From Rhodospirillales bacterium (GTDB lineage Bacteria; Pseudomonadota; Alphaproteobacteria; Rhodospirillales; Defluviicoccaceae): 64,000 nt of DNA. A program made the position numbers and the translations under genes. Shown here piece by piece: positions 2,920 through 29,651 of the stretch (positions within the stretch are counted from its first letter, which is position 1; every line of letters starts with the position of its first letter). The notes beneath the pieces were generated by a model, which was not told the DNA's origin, did not search any database, and saw only the letters and a list, made by a program, of their open reading frames with translations. The DNA lies in contig REEP01000069.1 of the NCBI GenBank assembly GCA_007695045.1, positions 1 to 64,000 of the forward strand, written 5' to 3'.

Positions 2920-5694
2920 TCAAGGGGATGGCGCCAGGAACGCCCGGGTGGCTCGGACGGCATCCGCCAGACCCACGCGCTCCACCGCCACACCGGCCGG
3001 CAGGGCCGCGAGCAGCCGTGACGGCAGCGCCCGGTCCAGCATCACGAACACCCCGCGATCGTCCGCGCGCCGGATCAGGCGGCCATAAGCCTGCTTCAGC
3101 CGGAGCCGGGTCAGCAGTTCGTCATAGCGACGGCCGCCGAATGCCGCCCGCCGCGCCCGGTGCAGCAGATCCGGCCGCGGCCATGGCACCCGATCGAACA
3201 CGATCAGGCGCAGTGACCGCCCGGGCACATCAACCCCGTCGCGCACCGCGTCGGTGCCGAGCAGGCAGGCATTCTCCTCGGCCCGGAAGATGTCGACCAG
3301 GGTCCCGGTGTCCAGTGCATCCACGTGCTGGGCCAGCACCCGGATGCCCGCCGCCTCCAGCGCCGGCGCGATCCGGGCGTAGGCGGCCCGCAACCGCTGC
3401 ACCGCCGTGAACAGACCGAGGCCGCCACCGCCGGCGGCCAGGAACAACTCCCGCAGGGCTGCCGCCACCTGATCAGGGCTCTCGCGATTGACGTCCGTGA
3501 CCACCAAGAGCCTGGTACAGGCCGCATAGTCGAACGGCGACTCCACCGCCGATAGCACCGGCGGCATCGCCAGGTGACGAAGACCGAGCCGCGCTTCGGC
3601 TTCGGACCAGTCGGCCTCCCCGTCCCCGGTTCGGTCCAGCAGCGTTGCCGAGGTGATCACCAGACCGTGCGCAAGCTCCGACACGGCGTGGATGAACGGC
3701 TCCATCGGATCGCGCCAATGCCGATGCAGCCCCACGTCGATCTCGTTCCCGTCGACGCGCTCGATGCCGAGCCAGTCCACGAAGGCCGCCGGGGTTTCCG
3801 CCTCGAGGCCTCTCAGCATGGACCGCCACGCCGCAACGGGCAGAATGGCACGCCGCTCCAGGCTGCGCATCATCGCCTCGATCCGCTGCCGGGTGGCCGT
3901 GTCCAGGTCCGCCGCGTCGGTGTCGAGGCGCTGGGCGAGCTGGCGGCGCAGCGCCGTCAACGGCTTGATCAGCCGCTCCAGGCCAGCACCGAGGGCGGCG
4001 CCGGCCTCGGCGAGGCCTGCACCGGCCGGATGCAGCGCGCATTCCAGACTGTAGTTGGAGAAGTTGCCGTTGTCGCGGGCGTGAACTTGGCGGCGCACCA
4101 GGTCGAAAAACATTTCGGCGAGGCCCATCGGCATGTCGGCGGTCAGACGGCGACGCCAGCCAGGCCCGGGCAGCACGCGCGCGGCCGCGATCGCCGTCTC
4201 CATCGCTGACCGCGCCGCCTGGTCCTCCGTCACCAAATCGCCCAGCCGCGCCTTCAGGCCGCGGCTGCGGGACCGTCGGCGCTCCTCGGCCCCCAGCAGC
4301 CAGCGCCGCAAATCCGCGGTTTCACGGCCCGTGAGGTGGGCGGAGAACGCCGAATCCGCGGCCTCGAACAGGTGGTGCCCCTCGTCGAACACGAATCGGG
4401 TGGGCAGGACCTGGTCGTCGCCGCCCCCCAGCGCCGCCTGCACCATCACCAGGGCATGGTTGGCGACCACGATCCGCGCCTGGCGCGCCCGCCGGATGGT
4501 GCGCTCCACGAAGCACTTGCGGTAGTGCCGGCAGGCCCCGTAGATGCACTCGCCGCGGGTGTCGGTCAGGTCCACGGTGAGCCCGGCGCCCAGCAAGTCG
4601 GCCAGCCAGCCGGGGAAATCGCCGCCCACCATGTCGCCGTCCCGGGTCGCCGACACCCAGCGCGCCACCAGTCCCAGTGCCACCCCGGCGCCGTCGCCGC
4701 CGCGCGCCGGCAGGCGCGCAACCGCTTCGTCGAAGTTCAGCAGGCAGAACATGTTCTCCCGGCCTTTGCGCACGACGACGTGGCGCCGCTTCTCCCGCAG
4801 GTCCGGATACAGCCGATCCAGTTCCCGGTCGAGTTGGCGCTGCAGGTTGCGGGTGTAGGTGCTGATCCATACGCTGCCCTTGTTTTTCTCCGACCACACG
4901 CTCGCGGGTGCGATGTACCCAAGGGTCTTGCCGACACCGGTCCCGGCCTCGGCCACCACGACCGCAGGCGCGCCCGCCGTATCCCGGGGCTTGAATGCCG
5001 CCGAGACGTGGGAGGCAAAGACCATCTGTTGCGGACGCGCCTCGGCATCCTGCCCGACAAGCTTGACCAGCCGCGCCCGCGCCTCCACCGATTCCACCGG
5101 CCAGCTGTCCGGCTTGCCGGGCGGCGGCGGTTCCGTCCACTCCCGAAGGCGGTGCCAGACCCGGAGTCCGGCGGCCAGGTCCCGATCGGCCGGCGCATCC
5201 CCGCCGGCGAGTGCACCGATCACGGCCGGCCCCCATGACCAGTTGGCCTTGGCCATGGTCCAGGCCACGGCCAGGGCGTCGTCACGGGGCGAGGCACGGA
5301 GTTCGGCAAGCAGAGAACCGGCCGCGGCAAGCAGCCCGGCCGCCTCCTGCTCAGGCGTTTCCGGGGGCGTCAGCAGCAGCGCCTGGGCGAGGCCTCGGGC
5401 GGTGGGCAGGCAGAAGCGGGCCGGCCGCACGAATGCGAACAACTCCAGAAGGTCGTAGGCCGGGAACGGCGGCATGGCCAAGCGGCGCGCGGCGGCCGGC
5501 GCATGGCACAGGATGGGAACCTCCCCACCTTCCAGGCGTCCGACCACGTCATTACGGGAGAGCGTCAGAACCTCCCCCGCCGGCGTCAGCCAGATGCTGG
5601 TGCGAACTCCCACCGTCAGCGCCGGCGCGTCCGGAACACAAAGCGGGGGCGCTGCCGAGCAGCGCACGCGGTGAACGCTGGCCATGACGCGCAC
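2920..5694 (-). CDS. DinG/XPD-type ATP-dependent DNA helicase with Fe-S cluster
   Basis: A superfamily 2 helicase of the Rad3/XPD/DinG group, expected to unwind DNA 5' to 3' during repair or at R-loops. Visible motifs are Walker A AEAGTGVGKT (about 248-257, Lys256), the DEAH-type box as DEGH at 437-440, and motifs V/VI toward the C-terminus (LLGTDAVRDGVDVPG; QAYGRLIRR). Four cysteines at 317, 383, 388 and 394 lie between Walker A and DEGH, the position of the iron-sulfur cluster in XPD and DinG. At 924 residues it exceeds the roughly 700 of E. coli DinG, because about 200 residues precede the helicase core. In alphaproteobacteria this long form is usually annotated simply as ATP-dependent DNA helicase. 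Confidence 0.9.
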   Translation of the reverse strand: MRVMASVHRVRCSAAPPLCVPDAPALTVGVRTSIWLTPAGEVLTLSRNDVVGRLEGGEVPILCHAPAAARRLAMPPFPAYDLLELFAFVRPARFCLPTARGLAQALLLTPPETPEQEAAGLLAAAGSLLAELRASPRDDALAVAWTMAKANWSWGPAVIGALAGGDAPADRDLAAGLRVWHRLREWTEPPPPGKPDSWPVESVEARARLVKLVGQDAEARPQQMVFASHVSAAFKPRDTAGAPAVVVAEAGTGVGKTLGYIAPASVWSEKNKGSVWISTYTRNLQRQLDRELDRLYPDLREKRRHVVVRKGRENMFCLLNFDEAVARLPARGGDGAGVALGLVARWVSATRDGDMVGGDFPGWLADLLGAGLTVDLTDTRGECIYGACRHYRKCFVERTIRRARQARIVVANHALVMVQAALGGGDDQVLPTRFVFDEGHHLFEAADSAFSAHLTGRETADLRRWLLGAEERRRSRSRGLKARLGDLVTEDQAARSAMETAIAAARVLPGPGWRRRLTADMPMGLAEMFFDLVRRQVHARDNGNFSNYSLECALHPAGAGLAEAGAALGAGLERLIKPLTALRRQLAQRLDTDAADLDTATRQRIEAMMRSLERRAILPVAAWRSMLRGLEAETPAAFVDWLGIERVDGNEIDVGLHRHWRDPMEPFIHAVSELAHGLVITSATLLDRTGDGEADWSEAEARLGLRHLAMPPVLSAVESPFDYAACTRLLVVTDVNRESPDQVAAALRELFLAAGGGGLGLFTAVQRLRAAYARIAPALEAAGIRVLAQHVDALDTGTLVDIFRAEENACLLGTDAVRDGVDVPGRSLRLIVFDRVPWPRPDLLHRARRAAFGGRRYDELLTRLRLKQAYGRLIRRADDRGVFVMLDRALPSRLLAALPAGVAVERVGLADAVRATRAFLAPSP

Positions 5695-17109: not shown

Positions 17110-17652
17110 TCAGGCGCCGTGCACCGTACCGGCCCGGGCCCGTGCCAGATTGATCTGCTTTTCCAGCTCAGCCTCCGAACACAGGCCGAGCCCCACCGGG
17201 TTCTGCGGCTTGATGTTGGGCGCGTTCCAATGGGAGCGGTCACGGATCTTGTCGATGGTCGCCTTGGTCGTCCCGATCAGCCTGCAGATCTGGCCGTCCG
17301 AAAGTTCGGGATAATTCTTGATCAACCAAGCGATGGCATCGGGGCGGTCCTGCCGCTTGGCCACCGGCGTATAGCGGGCACCCTTGGGCCGCACCAGTGG
17401 TTGCGGCACTCGAGAATCGGCCGGCCGCAAACGCGCGTCGGGATCGGCTGAACAGCGCTCGATTTCCTGTCGGGTCAACTCCCCGGTCAAAATCGGATCC
17501 CGTCCCTGCATGCCGTGGCCGACCTCATCGTCGGCGATCGCCTGCACCTCCAGCGCGTGCATACCGCAAAAATCGGCGATCTGTTCGAAGGTCAGCGACG
17601 TGTTTTCGATCAGCCACACAGCCGTGGCCTTCGGCATGAGCGGTTGCGCCAT
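17110..17652 (-). CDS. trcR: Cell cycle transcriptional regulator TrcR (DUF1013)
   Basis: A 180-residue protein of the family formerly DUF1013, found only in alphaproteobacteria as far as I know and named TrcR for a link to cell-cycle transcription. It contains two similar helix-turn-helix-like halves: ATAVWLIENTSLTFEQIADF near the N-terminus and AIAWLIKNYPELSDGQICRL near residue 110. The final block DRSHWNAPNIKPQNPVGLGL is strongly characteristic. It converges on xerD with a 28-base gap and no obvious terminator. Confidence 0.9.
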   Translation of the reverse strand: MAQPLMPKATAVWLIENTSLTFEQIADFCGMHALEVQAIADDEVGHGMQGRDPILTGELTRQEIERCSADPDARLRPADSRVPQPLVRPKGARYTPVAKRQDRPDAIAWLIKNYPELSDGQICRLIGTTKATIDKIRDRSHWNAPNIKPQNPVGLGLCSEAELEKQINLARARAGTVHGA

Positions 17653-17783: not shown

Positions 17784-18806
17784 TCAAGGAGGCGCGACCG
17801 TTAACACAATCTTGCCGATGTGCTGACCGGCCTCCATCATTCGGTGGGCGGCTGCCGCGTCGGCCAGAGGAACCTGCGCATGGATCGGCGGAATGATGGC
17901 CCCGGCGGCGACCAGCGGCCAGACCCGCGCCGCCAGAGCGGCCGCGATCTCCCCCTTGCGGGCCACAGGCTGGATGCGGAGAGTGGACCCGGTGAGCGTG
18001 AGCCGTTTCAACATCACCGGCATCAAATCCAGTTCCACCTTGCTGCCCTTGCGGAAGGCGATATTCACCAGCCGACCGTCCCGGGCCAGGCAGGCGATGT
18101 TGCGCGTGACATAGTCGCCGCCGACGATGTCAAGAATGACGTCGACGCCTTTGCCGCCGGTGGCTTCCTTGATGACGGCGACGAAATCCTCCCGCCGGTA
18201 ATCGATCGCGCGCGCCGCGCCCAGCTGCTCGCAGGCTTGGCACTTCTCCGGTCCGCCGGCGGTGGCGAAGACGCGGGCACCGAAGCGGCTGGCCATCTGG
18301 ATCGCCGTGGTGCCGATGCCGCCGCTGCCCCCGTGCACCAGGAAGCTCTCGCCGTCGCTTAGGTGCGCCCGCTCGAAAACGTTGGTCCACACGGTGAAGA
18401 ATGTCTCCGGCAGTGCCGCCGCCTGCACCATGTCGAGCCCGGTGGGGATGGCGAGGCACTGTACATGCGGTGCGGTACAGTATTCCGCGTAGCCGCCGCC
18501 GCTAACGAGAGCACAGACGGCATCCCCCTCCCGCCAAGTGGTCACGTCCGGCGCCACCCGGACGATGGTGCCGGCGACTTCCAGGCCCGGAATGTCCGAT
18601 GCGCCGGGTGGGGCCGGATACAGTCCTCGGCGCTGGAACAGATCGGGACCATTGATGCCGGCGGCCGCCACCCGGATCAGCACCTCGCCCGGCCCCGGTT
18701 CCGGAACCGGGCGCGTGGTCGCCCGCAACACCTCGGGACCGCCGGGGCTGGCGATCTCAACGGCGGTCATGGTCTCGGGCACGGCTTGCGATACGGCTTG
18801 TTGCAT
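17784..18806 (-). CDS. NAD(P)H quinone oxidoreductase, zinc-independent MDR family
   Basis: Medium-chain dehydrogenase/reductase of the quinone oxidoreductase (TP53I3/PIG3) type. Start ATG 18806 has GGGAGG about 8 bases upstream. Features are the groES-like part with NGPDLFQRRGLYPAP, the long middle segment VQAAALPETFFTVWTNVF, and the nucleotide-binding loop HGGSGGIGTTAIQMA. The catalytic zinc ligands of alcohol dehydrogenases are absent. Substrate is not predictable. It is a lone gene. Confidence 0.88.
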   Translation of the reverse strand: MQQAVSQAVPETMTAVEIASPGGPEVLRATTRPVPEPGPGEVLIRVAAAGINGPDLFQRRGLYPAPPGASDIPGLEVAGTIVRVAPDVTTWREGDAVCALVSGGGYAEYCTAPHVQCLAIPTGLDMVQAAALPETFFTVWTNVFERAHLSDGESFLVHGGSGGIGTTAIQMASRFGARVFATAGGPEKCQACEQLGAARAIDYRREDFVAVIKEATGGKGVDVILDIVGGDYVTRNIACLARDGRLVNIAFRKGSKVELDLMPVMLKRLTLTGSTLRIQPVARKGEIAAALAARVWPLVAAGAIIPPIHAQVPLADAAAAHRMMEAGQHIGKIVLTVAPP

Positions 18807-19049: not shown

Positions 19050-19232
19050 ATGGAGCCCGAAGACCTTGAACCCCGCGCGAAGAAGCCGGCGTTGAGAAAC
19101 CTCGAGATCATGTCGATCGAAGCGCTTCGTGTCTACATCGGCGAATTGGAGGCGGAGATCGCCCGCGCTCGTGCCGAGATCGCCGCCAAGGAGACCGCCC
19201 GCGACAGCGCCGCCGGCCTGTTCCGTACCTGA
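19050..19232 (+). CDS. DUF1192 family small coiled-coil protein
   Basis: A 60-residue protein of the DUF1192 family. The recognisable core is LEIMSIEALRVYIGELEAEIARARAEI, which forms a coiled coil, ending in AAGLFRT. No signal peptide. GGAAGGAGG lies upstream. I know no function. It stands in the same direction as, and about 90 bases before, the predicted promoter of the small RNA candidate. Confidence 0.82.
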   Translation: MEPEDLEPRAKKPALRNLEIMSIEALRVYIGELEAEIARARAEIAAKETARDSAAGLFRT

Positions 19233-19318: not shown

Positions 19319-19347
19319 TTGATGCCCCATTTGGGTCAGGCTATAAC
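19319..19347 (+). promoter_or_regulatory. Near-consensus promoter of the small RNA candidate
   Basis: TTGATG (19319-19324), a 17-base spacer and TATAAC (19342-19347) match a housekeeping promoter well. The transcription start would be about 19353-19355. No open frame with a ribosome site follows, which is why a noncoding transcript is proposed. Confidence 0.6.
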
Positions 19348-19353
19348 CATCGT

Positions 19354-19442
19354 GTCCCGCGAGCGTCCACATGAGCCGTCCGGCTCATCTTGACCTCCTC
19401 CCTATCCAACTCGAGCCGCCCTCCCCGGGCGGCTCTTTTTTT
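19354..19442 (+). ncRNA. Candidate trans-acting small RNA with CCUCCUCCC motif
   Basis: About 89 bases from the predicted start to the end of a strong terminator. Order of parts: a short single-stranded 5' end, a perfect hairpin ATGAGCC-gtcc-GGCTCAT (19371-19388), an unpaired stretch with CCTCCTCCC (19394-19402), and the terminator hairpin. The CCUCCUCCC sequence is complementary to Shine-Dalgarno sites. Small RNAs with such anti-SD motifs (for example the cuckoo/CcsR types) are known in alphaproteobacteria. In those I recall the motif in a hairpin loop, whereas here it lies between two hairpins, so this may be a different class. No coding potential was seen. Entirely predicted from sequence. 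Confidence 0.5.
19413..19442 (+). terminator. Strong Rho-independent terminator
   Basis: GAGCCGCCC (19413-19421), loop TCCCC, GGGCGGCTC (19427-19435), then seven T (19436-19442). It is 180 bases beyond the DUF1192 stop, so it more likely ends the small RNA transcript, though read-through from DUF1192 would also stop here. Confidence 0.9.
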
Positions 19443-29069: not shown

Positions 29070-29651
29070 TCAGCCTTTTTGTTTGGTTTCGTTGCGGATG
29101 GTGGCAAGCGCCGCAAAAGGGCGGCGCGCATCGTCGTCATCGCCATCATCCGCTGTGACAGTAAACTCAGAGAATGCCGCGTCAGGCCGTCGCGGATACG
29201 GGTCGAGCACAAGAGCCAGTTCTTGGGCGGCGACTTCACCAAGATCGATCATGCCTCCTACTACCGGTTCCGGAAGTTCCGGATCATCGGCCAGGGTCAT
29301 CACGACCTCCTCCCCGAGCGCCGGCGCGTCGCCCCATTCGTCCGCGACGTCAATGCCGTAAACCCGCTCGAACGGCACGTCAAGCCGGGCAGCCACCGGC
29401 TCCAGCGTAACCACGCACTGCTGTACAACGTCGGCGCGCAACTGACCGCTGACCCGAAAGCGCCTGGCACGCTGCCGCGGCTGGACCATACCCTCGGCCG
29501 CCAACGCATCGACTGCCAACAGGCCGAATCGCCGTGCCAGCCCCCGGCGCTCGTCGGTGTTCGCGGCGATCCGGAAAGACCGCCCGGACGCCGGCACCGT
29601 GTCGATGGCGAGCGGACGCGAGAAGTCCGCCATCTCAACGTGCGTGGTCAT
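29070..29651 (-). CDS. DUF177 (YceD) family protein
   Basis: A 193-residue YceD/DUF177 protein. In many bacteria and in chloroplasts this family is tied to 23S rRNA accumulation or processing and sits next to rpmF. Here the C-terminal acidic patch (TADDGDDDDA) and the VSGQLRADVVQQCVVTLEPV block are typical. The ribosomal protein L32 gene that often follows is missing from this locus. The gene is preceded by the bc1 chaperone gene with 11 bases between them. Confidence 0.85.
   Translation of the reverse strand: MTTHVEMADFSRPLAIDTVPASGRSFRIAANTDERRGLARRFGLLAVDALAAEGMVQPRQRARRFRVSGQLRADVVQQCVVTLEPVAARLDVPFERVYGIDVADEWGDAPALGEEVVMTLADDPELPEPVVGGMIDLGEVAAQELALVLDPYPRRPDAAFSEFTVTADDGDDDDARRPFAALATIRNETKQKG

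Follow-up and report, generated by a model that had tools for sequence, protein, structure and literature searches.

Alpha-r8 RNAs (RF00519), among them MmgR of Sinorhizobium meliloti and SisA-D of Caulobacter, have a two-hairpin layout with an anti-Shine-Dalgarno linker; their 10-mer is UUUCCUCCCU (PMC12559287). With Hfq, SisA represses mRNAs through this 10-mer near the start codon; eight of ten tested targets were repressed and a compensatory mutation was shown (PMC12559287). A gene for N-formylglutamate amidohydrolase is the reported neighbour of alpha-r8, usual but not universal (PMC12559287). CrfA is a sponge of SisA-D. NfeR1 (alpha-r14) represses through CCUCCUCCC, in that case without Hfq (PMC10746234). 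The same motif is found in the cuckoo RNAs/CcsR; a cuckoo RNA is defined by 2–4 adjacent hairpins, each with CCUCCUCCC in its loop (PMC3927594, PMC10746234). SorY (RF02651) of Rhodobacter sphaeroides is built as hairpin, ACCUCCCUGUUGGACUU and terminator, and BjrC1505 (RF02356) as hairpin, CCUCCCU linker and GCCGCC terminator, with CCUCCCUGUUAAACUU as its seed.

The RNA gene analysed here lies in the window, the whole 64-kb stretch of DNA under study, where the gene order is trcR(-), qor(-), DUF1192(+), sRNA(+) (Table 1). A preliminary description had proposed a stand-alone gene for a small RNA, complete with promoter and terminator. Promoter, 89-nt transcript span, two hairpins, CCUCCUCCC and terminator agree with that proposal base for base, and the stand-alone character is likewise supported. 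A spacer of 17 nt separates TTGATG from TATAAC, and the predicted start is G19354, at the GUCCCGCGAG box. The terminator was also detected by an independent search. The predicted fold of the 89-nt RNA has an energy of -38 kcal/mol, compared with -20.1 ± 2.7 kcal/mol for shuffled sequences. The motif CCTCCTCCC alone is unremarkable, with three copies in 64 kb where about one is expected, so that the context counts; the combination of features is remarkable, since both copies and relatives preserve it.

Table 1. Features of the sRNA gene and its neighbourhood (positions in the window).
Feature	Position	Strand	Evidence and remarks
TrcR cell-cycle regulator gene (PF06242), outer neighbour	17110..17652	-	Pfam 207 bits
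Zinc-binding quinone-oxidoreductase-like dehydrogenase (qor)	17784..18806	-	Pfam ADH_N, ADH_zinc_N
DUF1192 gene (PF06698)	19050..19232	+	Pfam 51 bits; same neighbour in other families
-35 element TTGATG	19319..19324	+	Sequence; CTTG(A/C) similarly spaced in most family copies
Promoter palindrome CCC-ATTT-GGG in spacer	19326..19335	+	Weak form of TNCCCC-N4-GGGGNATA
-10 element TATAAC	19342..19347	+	Sequence; TATAA at same position in most copies
Small RNA gene, predicted 89 nt	19354..19442	+	Fold z = -6.7; model R1 88.9 bits (window copy itself among the sequences R1 was built from)
Invariant 5' box GUCCCGCGAGCGUCC	19354..19368	+	Alignment A1; folds of 17 copies
Hairpin 1, ATGAGCC/GGCTCAT	19371..19388	+	Compensatory changes; length variable among copies
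Invariant GACCUCCUCCCUAUCCAACU, contains anti-Shine-Dalgarno motif	19392..19411	+	Alignment; folds
Anti-Shine-Dalgarno motif CCTCCTCCC	19394..19402	+	Sequence
Intrinsic terminator, 9-bp stem + T7	19413..19442	+	Sequence; GCCGCCC..GGGCGGC conserved in copies; stem 19413–19435, T7 19436–19442

When the DNA of 60 relatives was searched, the element turned up in the window's family. An alignment (A1) of 17 complete copies from ten genomes was used to build the covariance model R1, which matches with 58–118 bits in 10 of the 11 family genomes, at 1–4 copies each; no R1 match was found in G006, an incomplete assembly. The preliminary description had staked its candidate on hairpin, motif and terminator being conserved among close relatives; such conservation was looked for and found, also by a covariance search of the kind that it had suggested. 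The genome of the window itself carries a second, 90%-identical copy on another contig, and family copies also occur at loci unrelated to qor-DUF1192. Searches of plasmids and phages gave no match, and a scan of named genomes returned only two MAGs, both labelled Rhodospirillales bacterium. Three blocks are near-invariant: GUCCCGCGAGCGUCC at the predicted start, GACCUCCUCCCUAUCCAACU and the GCCGCCC/GGGCGGC terminator stem. With zero mismatches, the 16-mer GACCTCCTCCCTATCC occurs only at these sRNA genes in the 11 family genomes (~36 Mb). Tandem sRNA genes with separate promoters and terminators were observed in G003:C419 (L124:1660-1760 and 1994-2095) and in G007:C11 (L039:289-403 and 500-619).

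Hairpin 1 varies in length among copies and shows pair changes on both sides. We counted 18 doubly changed cells compared with 6.9 in shuffled alignments (none of 500 shuffles was as high), although the alignment was fitted to the model and its pair counts therefore lean towards structure; hairpin arms set by hand agree, with T-A, C-G and G-C at one pair and A-T and G-C at others. Sliding the pair partners lowers pairing from 93% to 32–55%. The absence of a coding frame, as originally described, holds across the family: copies differ in their first ATG and in the frame that it sets with respect to the motif, which rules out a protein-coding reading. On the opposite strand, GGGAGGAGGTCAAGATG resembles a ribosome site with start codon; this reading was rejected, since other copies do not preserve the short frame and the polarity of the terminator is compatible with the + strand only. 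These sequence comparisons identify the window element as a real bacterial small-RNA gene that is both conserved and duplicated.

In most copies, CTTG(A/C) and TATAA precede the 5' box at a fixed distance. In addition, we found a promoter palindrome common to many copies, a feature new here. The palindrome, TACCCCATTTGGGGTATA, has the general form CCC-N4-GGG, is placed between or over the -35/-10 elements and occurs in 11 of 18 copy promoters, compared with 1.6–1.9% of background 48-mers. The window copy has a weaker form (CCCATTTGGG). The strict form TNCCCC-N4-GGGGNATA was found at seven distinct places in the 11 genomes, four of which are these promoters. Examples of this rare sequence over the -10 region are G000:C102 (L031 about 4242-4263) and G001:C142:167-184; further ones lie at sRNA promoters in G003:C419 (3271 and 3605) and at G003:C515:3363, and another at G006:C443:5380, away from this sRNA.

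The preliminary description had placed the motif unpaired between two hairpins. Its location stands, and the CUCCCUAUCCAACU part is predicted to be exposed; the first four bases of CCUCCUCCC, however, are predicted to help close the hairpin. In the predicted folds of the 17 copies, the first 7 nt of the 5' box are unpaired, and its GAG and GUC pair with GACCUC. This GAG-C-GUC/GACCUC pairing is present in all copies but one, so that the predicted fold partly masks the CCUC of the motif and leaves CUCCCUAUCCAACU free. Since the pairing is nearly invariant, covariation says little about it.

All of the best Rfam matches are below threshold: MmgR/alpha-r8 with 29.0 of 41 bits, SorY with 23.1 of 111 and BjrC1505 with 22.8 of 50. 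SorY shares the layout, and its reported control by a stress sigma factor has no indicated equivalent for the window RNA. Cuckoo RNA identity can be ruled out: the window RNA has a single motif in the linker, partly paired, instead of one in each loop, a difference in position already recognised in the preliminary description. Cuckoo RNAs often, though not always, have a linked DUF1127 gene; the genes adjacent to the window RNA are DUF1192 and qor.

Could the window RNA be an ordinary alpha-r8/MmgR (SisA) member of RF00519? The family is the top Rfam match (29 bits, E 9e-4), and the architecture, hairpin - CCUCCCU - ACU - terminator, is the same; several copies in some genomes and an encoded Hfq are further points in common. 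Nevertheless, we regard this as quite unlikely. The score falls short of the gathering score of 41, the 10-mer UUUCCUCCCU is missing, with GACCUCCUCCCU present instead, and the Sis promoters are reported to be without a common motif whereas many promoters of the window-type RNA share one. The same genome encodes a separate alpha-r8 of 53 bits (G000:C48), above threshold, which is therefore distinct from the window RNA; such an alpha-r8 is found in 10 of 11 family genomes. In G007 it adjoins N-formylglutamate amidohydrolase, the known neighbour, while the neighbours of the window RNA are DUF1192 and qor. The canonical alpha-r8/MmgR of the window's genome (L057:1122-1193, - strand) adjoins a CoA-transferase family III gene, not N-formylglutamate amidohydrolase.

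The locus points elsewhere. A dozen further families of the order carry qor/DUF1192 together with an sRNA built as hairpin - CCUCCCUGUUAAACUC - terminator, and 12 of 17 fetched R1 matches outside the family (E<1e-3) lie behind qor and/or DUF1192, although R1 was built without knowledge of synteny. BjrC1505 matches above the Rfam threshold elsewhere in the class adjoin the same genes, a locus feature that the window RNA shares. Given the shared position behind qor-DUF1192 and the R1 matches at this locus, we consider the window RNA most likely to be a strongly diverged ortholog of the BjrC1505-type RNA, an assignment based on synteny, architecture and model scores of 30–42 bits rather than close sequence similarity. 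It is unlike BjrC1505 in its own 5' box, its several copies and its linker, where CCUCCCUGUU..ACUU is missing and CCUCCUCCCUAUCCAACUC takes the place of the BjrC1505 seed. The main rival to orthology is an independent origin, in which a duplicate of, say, a cuckoo- or alpha-r8-type RNA would have replaced an older RNA at qor-DUF1192. The 5' box and seed are without counterpart outside the family and some copies sit at unrelated loci, as such an origin would predict; but locus, strand and architecture are all the same, and weak model matches recur at exactly this locus in other families, which makes replacement unlikely. The TrcR gene is also found near copies in G003, G009 and G010.

In other families, the orthologous sRNA is followed on the same strand by a second unit. 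It has a CTTGACC-N17-TAnAnT promoter of its own and a terminator-like hairpin, and through a stretch such as GGCGAGUUUAACAGGGA or CGAGUUUGACAGG-UU-GAGGCGU it is complementary to the seed of the sRNA. This seed-complementary unit, for which Rfam gave no match, is likewise new here. An instance is at L068:1628-1743, with equivalents in L292-L327 (R2 matches outside the window's family). Partner units lie 57–154 nt from the CCTCCC motif of the sRNA, and their complementarity to the seed shows compensatory changes. A model built from 14 of them (R2) matched in 35 of 49 non-family genomes at E<1e-4 and in none of the 11 genomes of the window's family at E<=0.1; for 18 of 24 held-out R2 matches, the 260 bases upstream contained a CCTCCC motif. 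Native sRNA-partner duplexes had a mean predicted energy of -29.2 kcal/mol compared with -26.8 kcal/mol for swapped pairs, and none of 20,000 permutations, which ignore relatedness, was as low. Pairing of the window family's seed with these partners is predicted to be much weaker (-17.8). Partner unit and sRNA seed apparently coevolve in relatives. Genomes differ in the gene that comes next, which makes it less likely that the partner is a leader of that gene. Most simply, the partner is read as a linked sponge that the window's family lost along with the change of seed; its proposed mode of action would be that of CrfA, a counterpart of which was not found in the window's family.

We give about even chances to a broader, order-wide reading, in which the genes of an sRNA and of a dedicated, seed-matching sponge stand back to back and evolve in concert, while the window's family would have lost the sponge, rewired the seed, fixed the 5' box, multiplied the gene and acquired a shared palindromic operator. 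A conserved locus would here keep a readable history of an sRNA seed, with the same position, a changed seed, a lost partner and a duplicated gene, and would make changes in the target set of broad sRNA regulators directly testable by swaps of seed and partner. Pairing of sRNA and sponge, so far shown for SisA/CrfA in Caulobacter, may be an old, physically linked arrangement elsewhere in the class.

Similarly designed RNAs (SisA, NfeR1) pair with Shine-Dalgarno regions, and translational repression is therefore proposed for the window RNA. A sigma-70-type promoter of its own would drive transcription from 19354, giving a trans-acting sRNA of ~89 nt, probably assisted by Hfq, which is encoded in all 11 family genomes. 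Its C/U-rich CUCCCUAUCC stretch would meet 5' regions of mRNAs: the exposed CUCCCUAUCCAACU would pair with the Shine-Dalgarno regions of several of them, CCUC would extend this pairing once the closing stem opens, and translation would be blocked. By this analogy, the sRNA probably silences several mRNAs whose ribosome-binding sites it would cover. Within the family, CCUCCUCCCUAUCCAACUC would have replaced CCUCCCUGUUAAACUC as the seed, a fixed 5' box would have arisen, the gene would have been duplicated and the neighbouring partner RNA lost. As a whole, we hold with fair confidence that this is an Hfq-assisted, mRNA-repressing sRNA, a BjrC1505-type ortholog with a changed seed, a new box, a duplicated gene and a lost partner. 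Sequence alone establishes the anatomy of the gene, its conservation, covariation, copy number and synteny and the partner's absence; transcription, Hfq binding, mRNA pairing and repression are inferred, as is the sequence in which the evolutionary changes took place.

It is extremely unlikely that the element is not transcribed and merely joins a terminator to a chance hairpin behind DUF1192, as copies far from DUF1192 retain the promoter and start box and the unpaired blocks are conserved. Action on a protein instead of mRNAs, with the C/U-rich stretch or the 5' box titrating an RNA-binding protein, would fit a box as invariant as the seed and the gene in G009:C220, which has box and terminator without the anti-Shine-Dalgarno motif. 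Yet no such protein is indicated and similarly designed anti-Shine-Dalgarno RNAs pair with mRNA (PMC12559287, PMC10746234), so that titration appears very unlikely. The gene in question (L125:1415-1501, G009:C220:5414-5500) is RNA-like, with the same 5' box, GTCCCGCGAGCGTC, a hairpin and a terminator.

The target prediction against start regions that the preliminary description had suggested yielded no target conserved across genera in start-codon position in the 11 genomes. Long complements of the seed were found in the family genomes only at the sRNA genes themselves or at places without sRNA-like context. Two candidates were rejected, as both sites lie inside open frames: one at 29298-29314 (-) in the window, the other, within a long frame, for a 66 aa protein, the sole candidate common to two genera (G001, G005). 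GGGAGGAGG before ATG selects ordinary strong ribosome-binding sites; GGGAGGAGG-N3-9-ATG occurs at some 60 places in the 11 genomes, and translations at these places provide leads to phasin-like, acyl-CoA-ligase-like and sugar-metabolism-like proteins.
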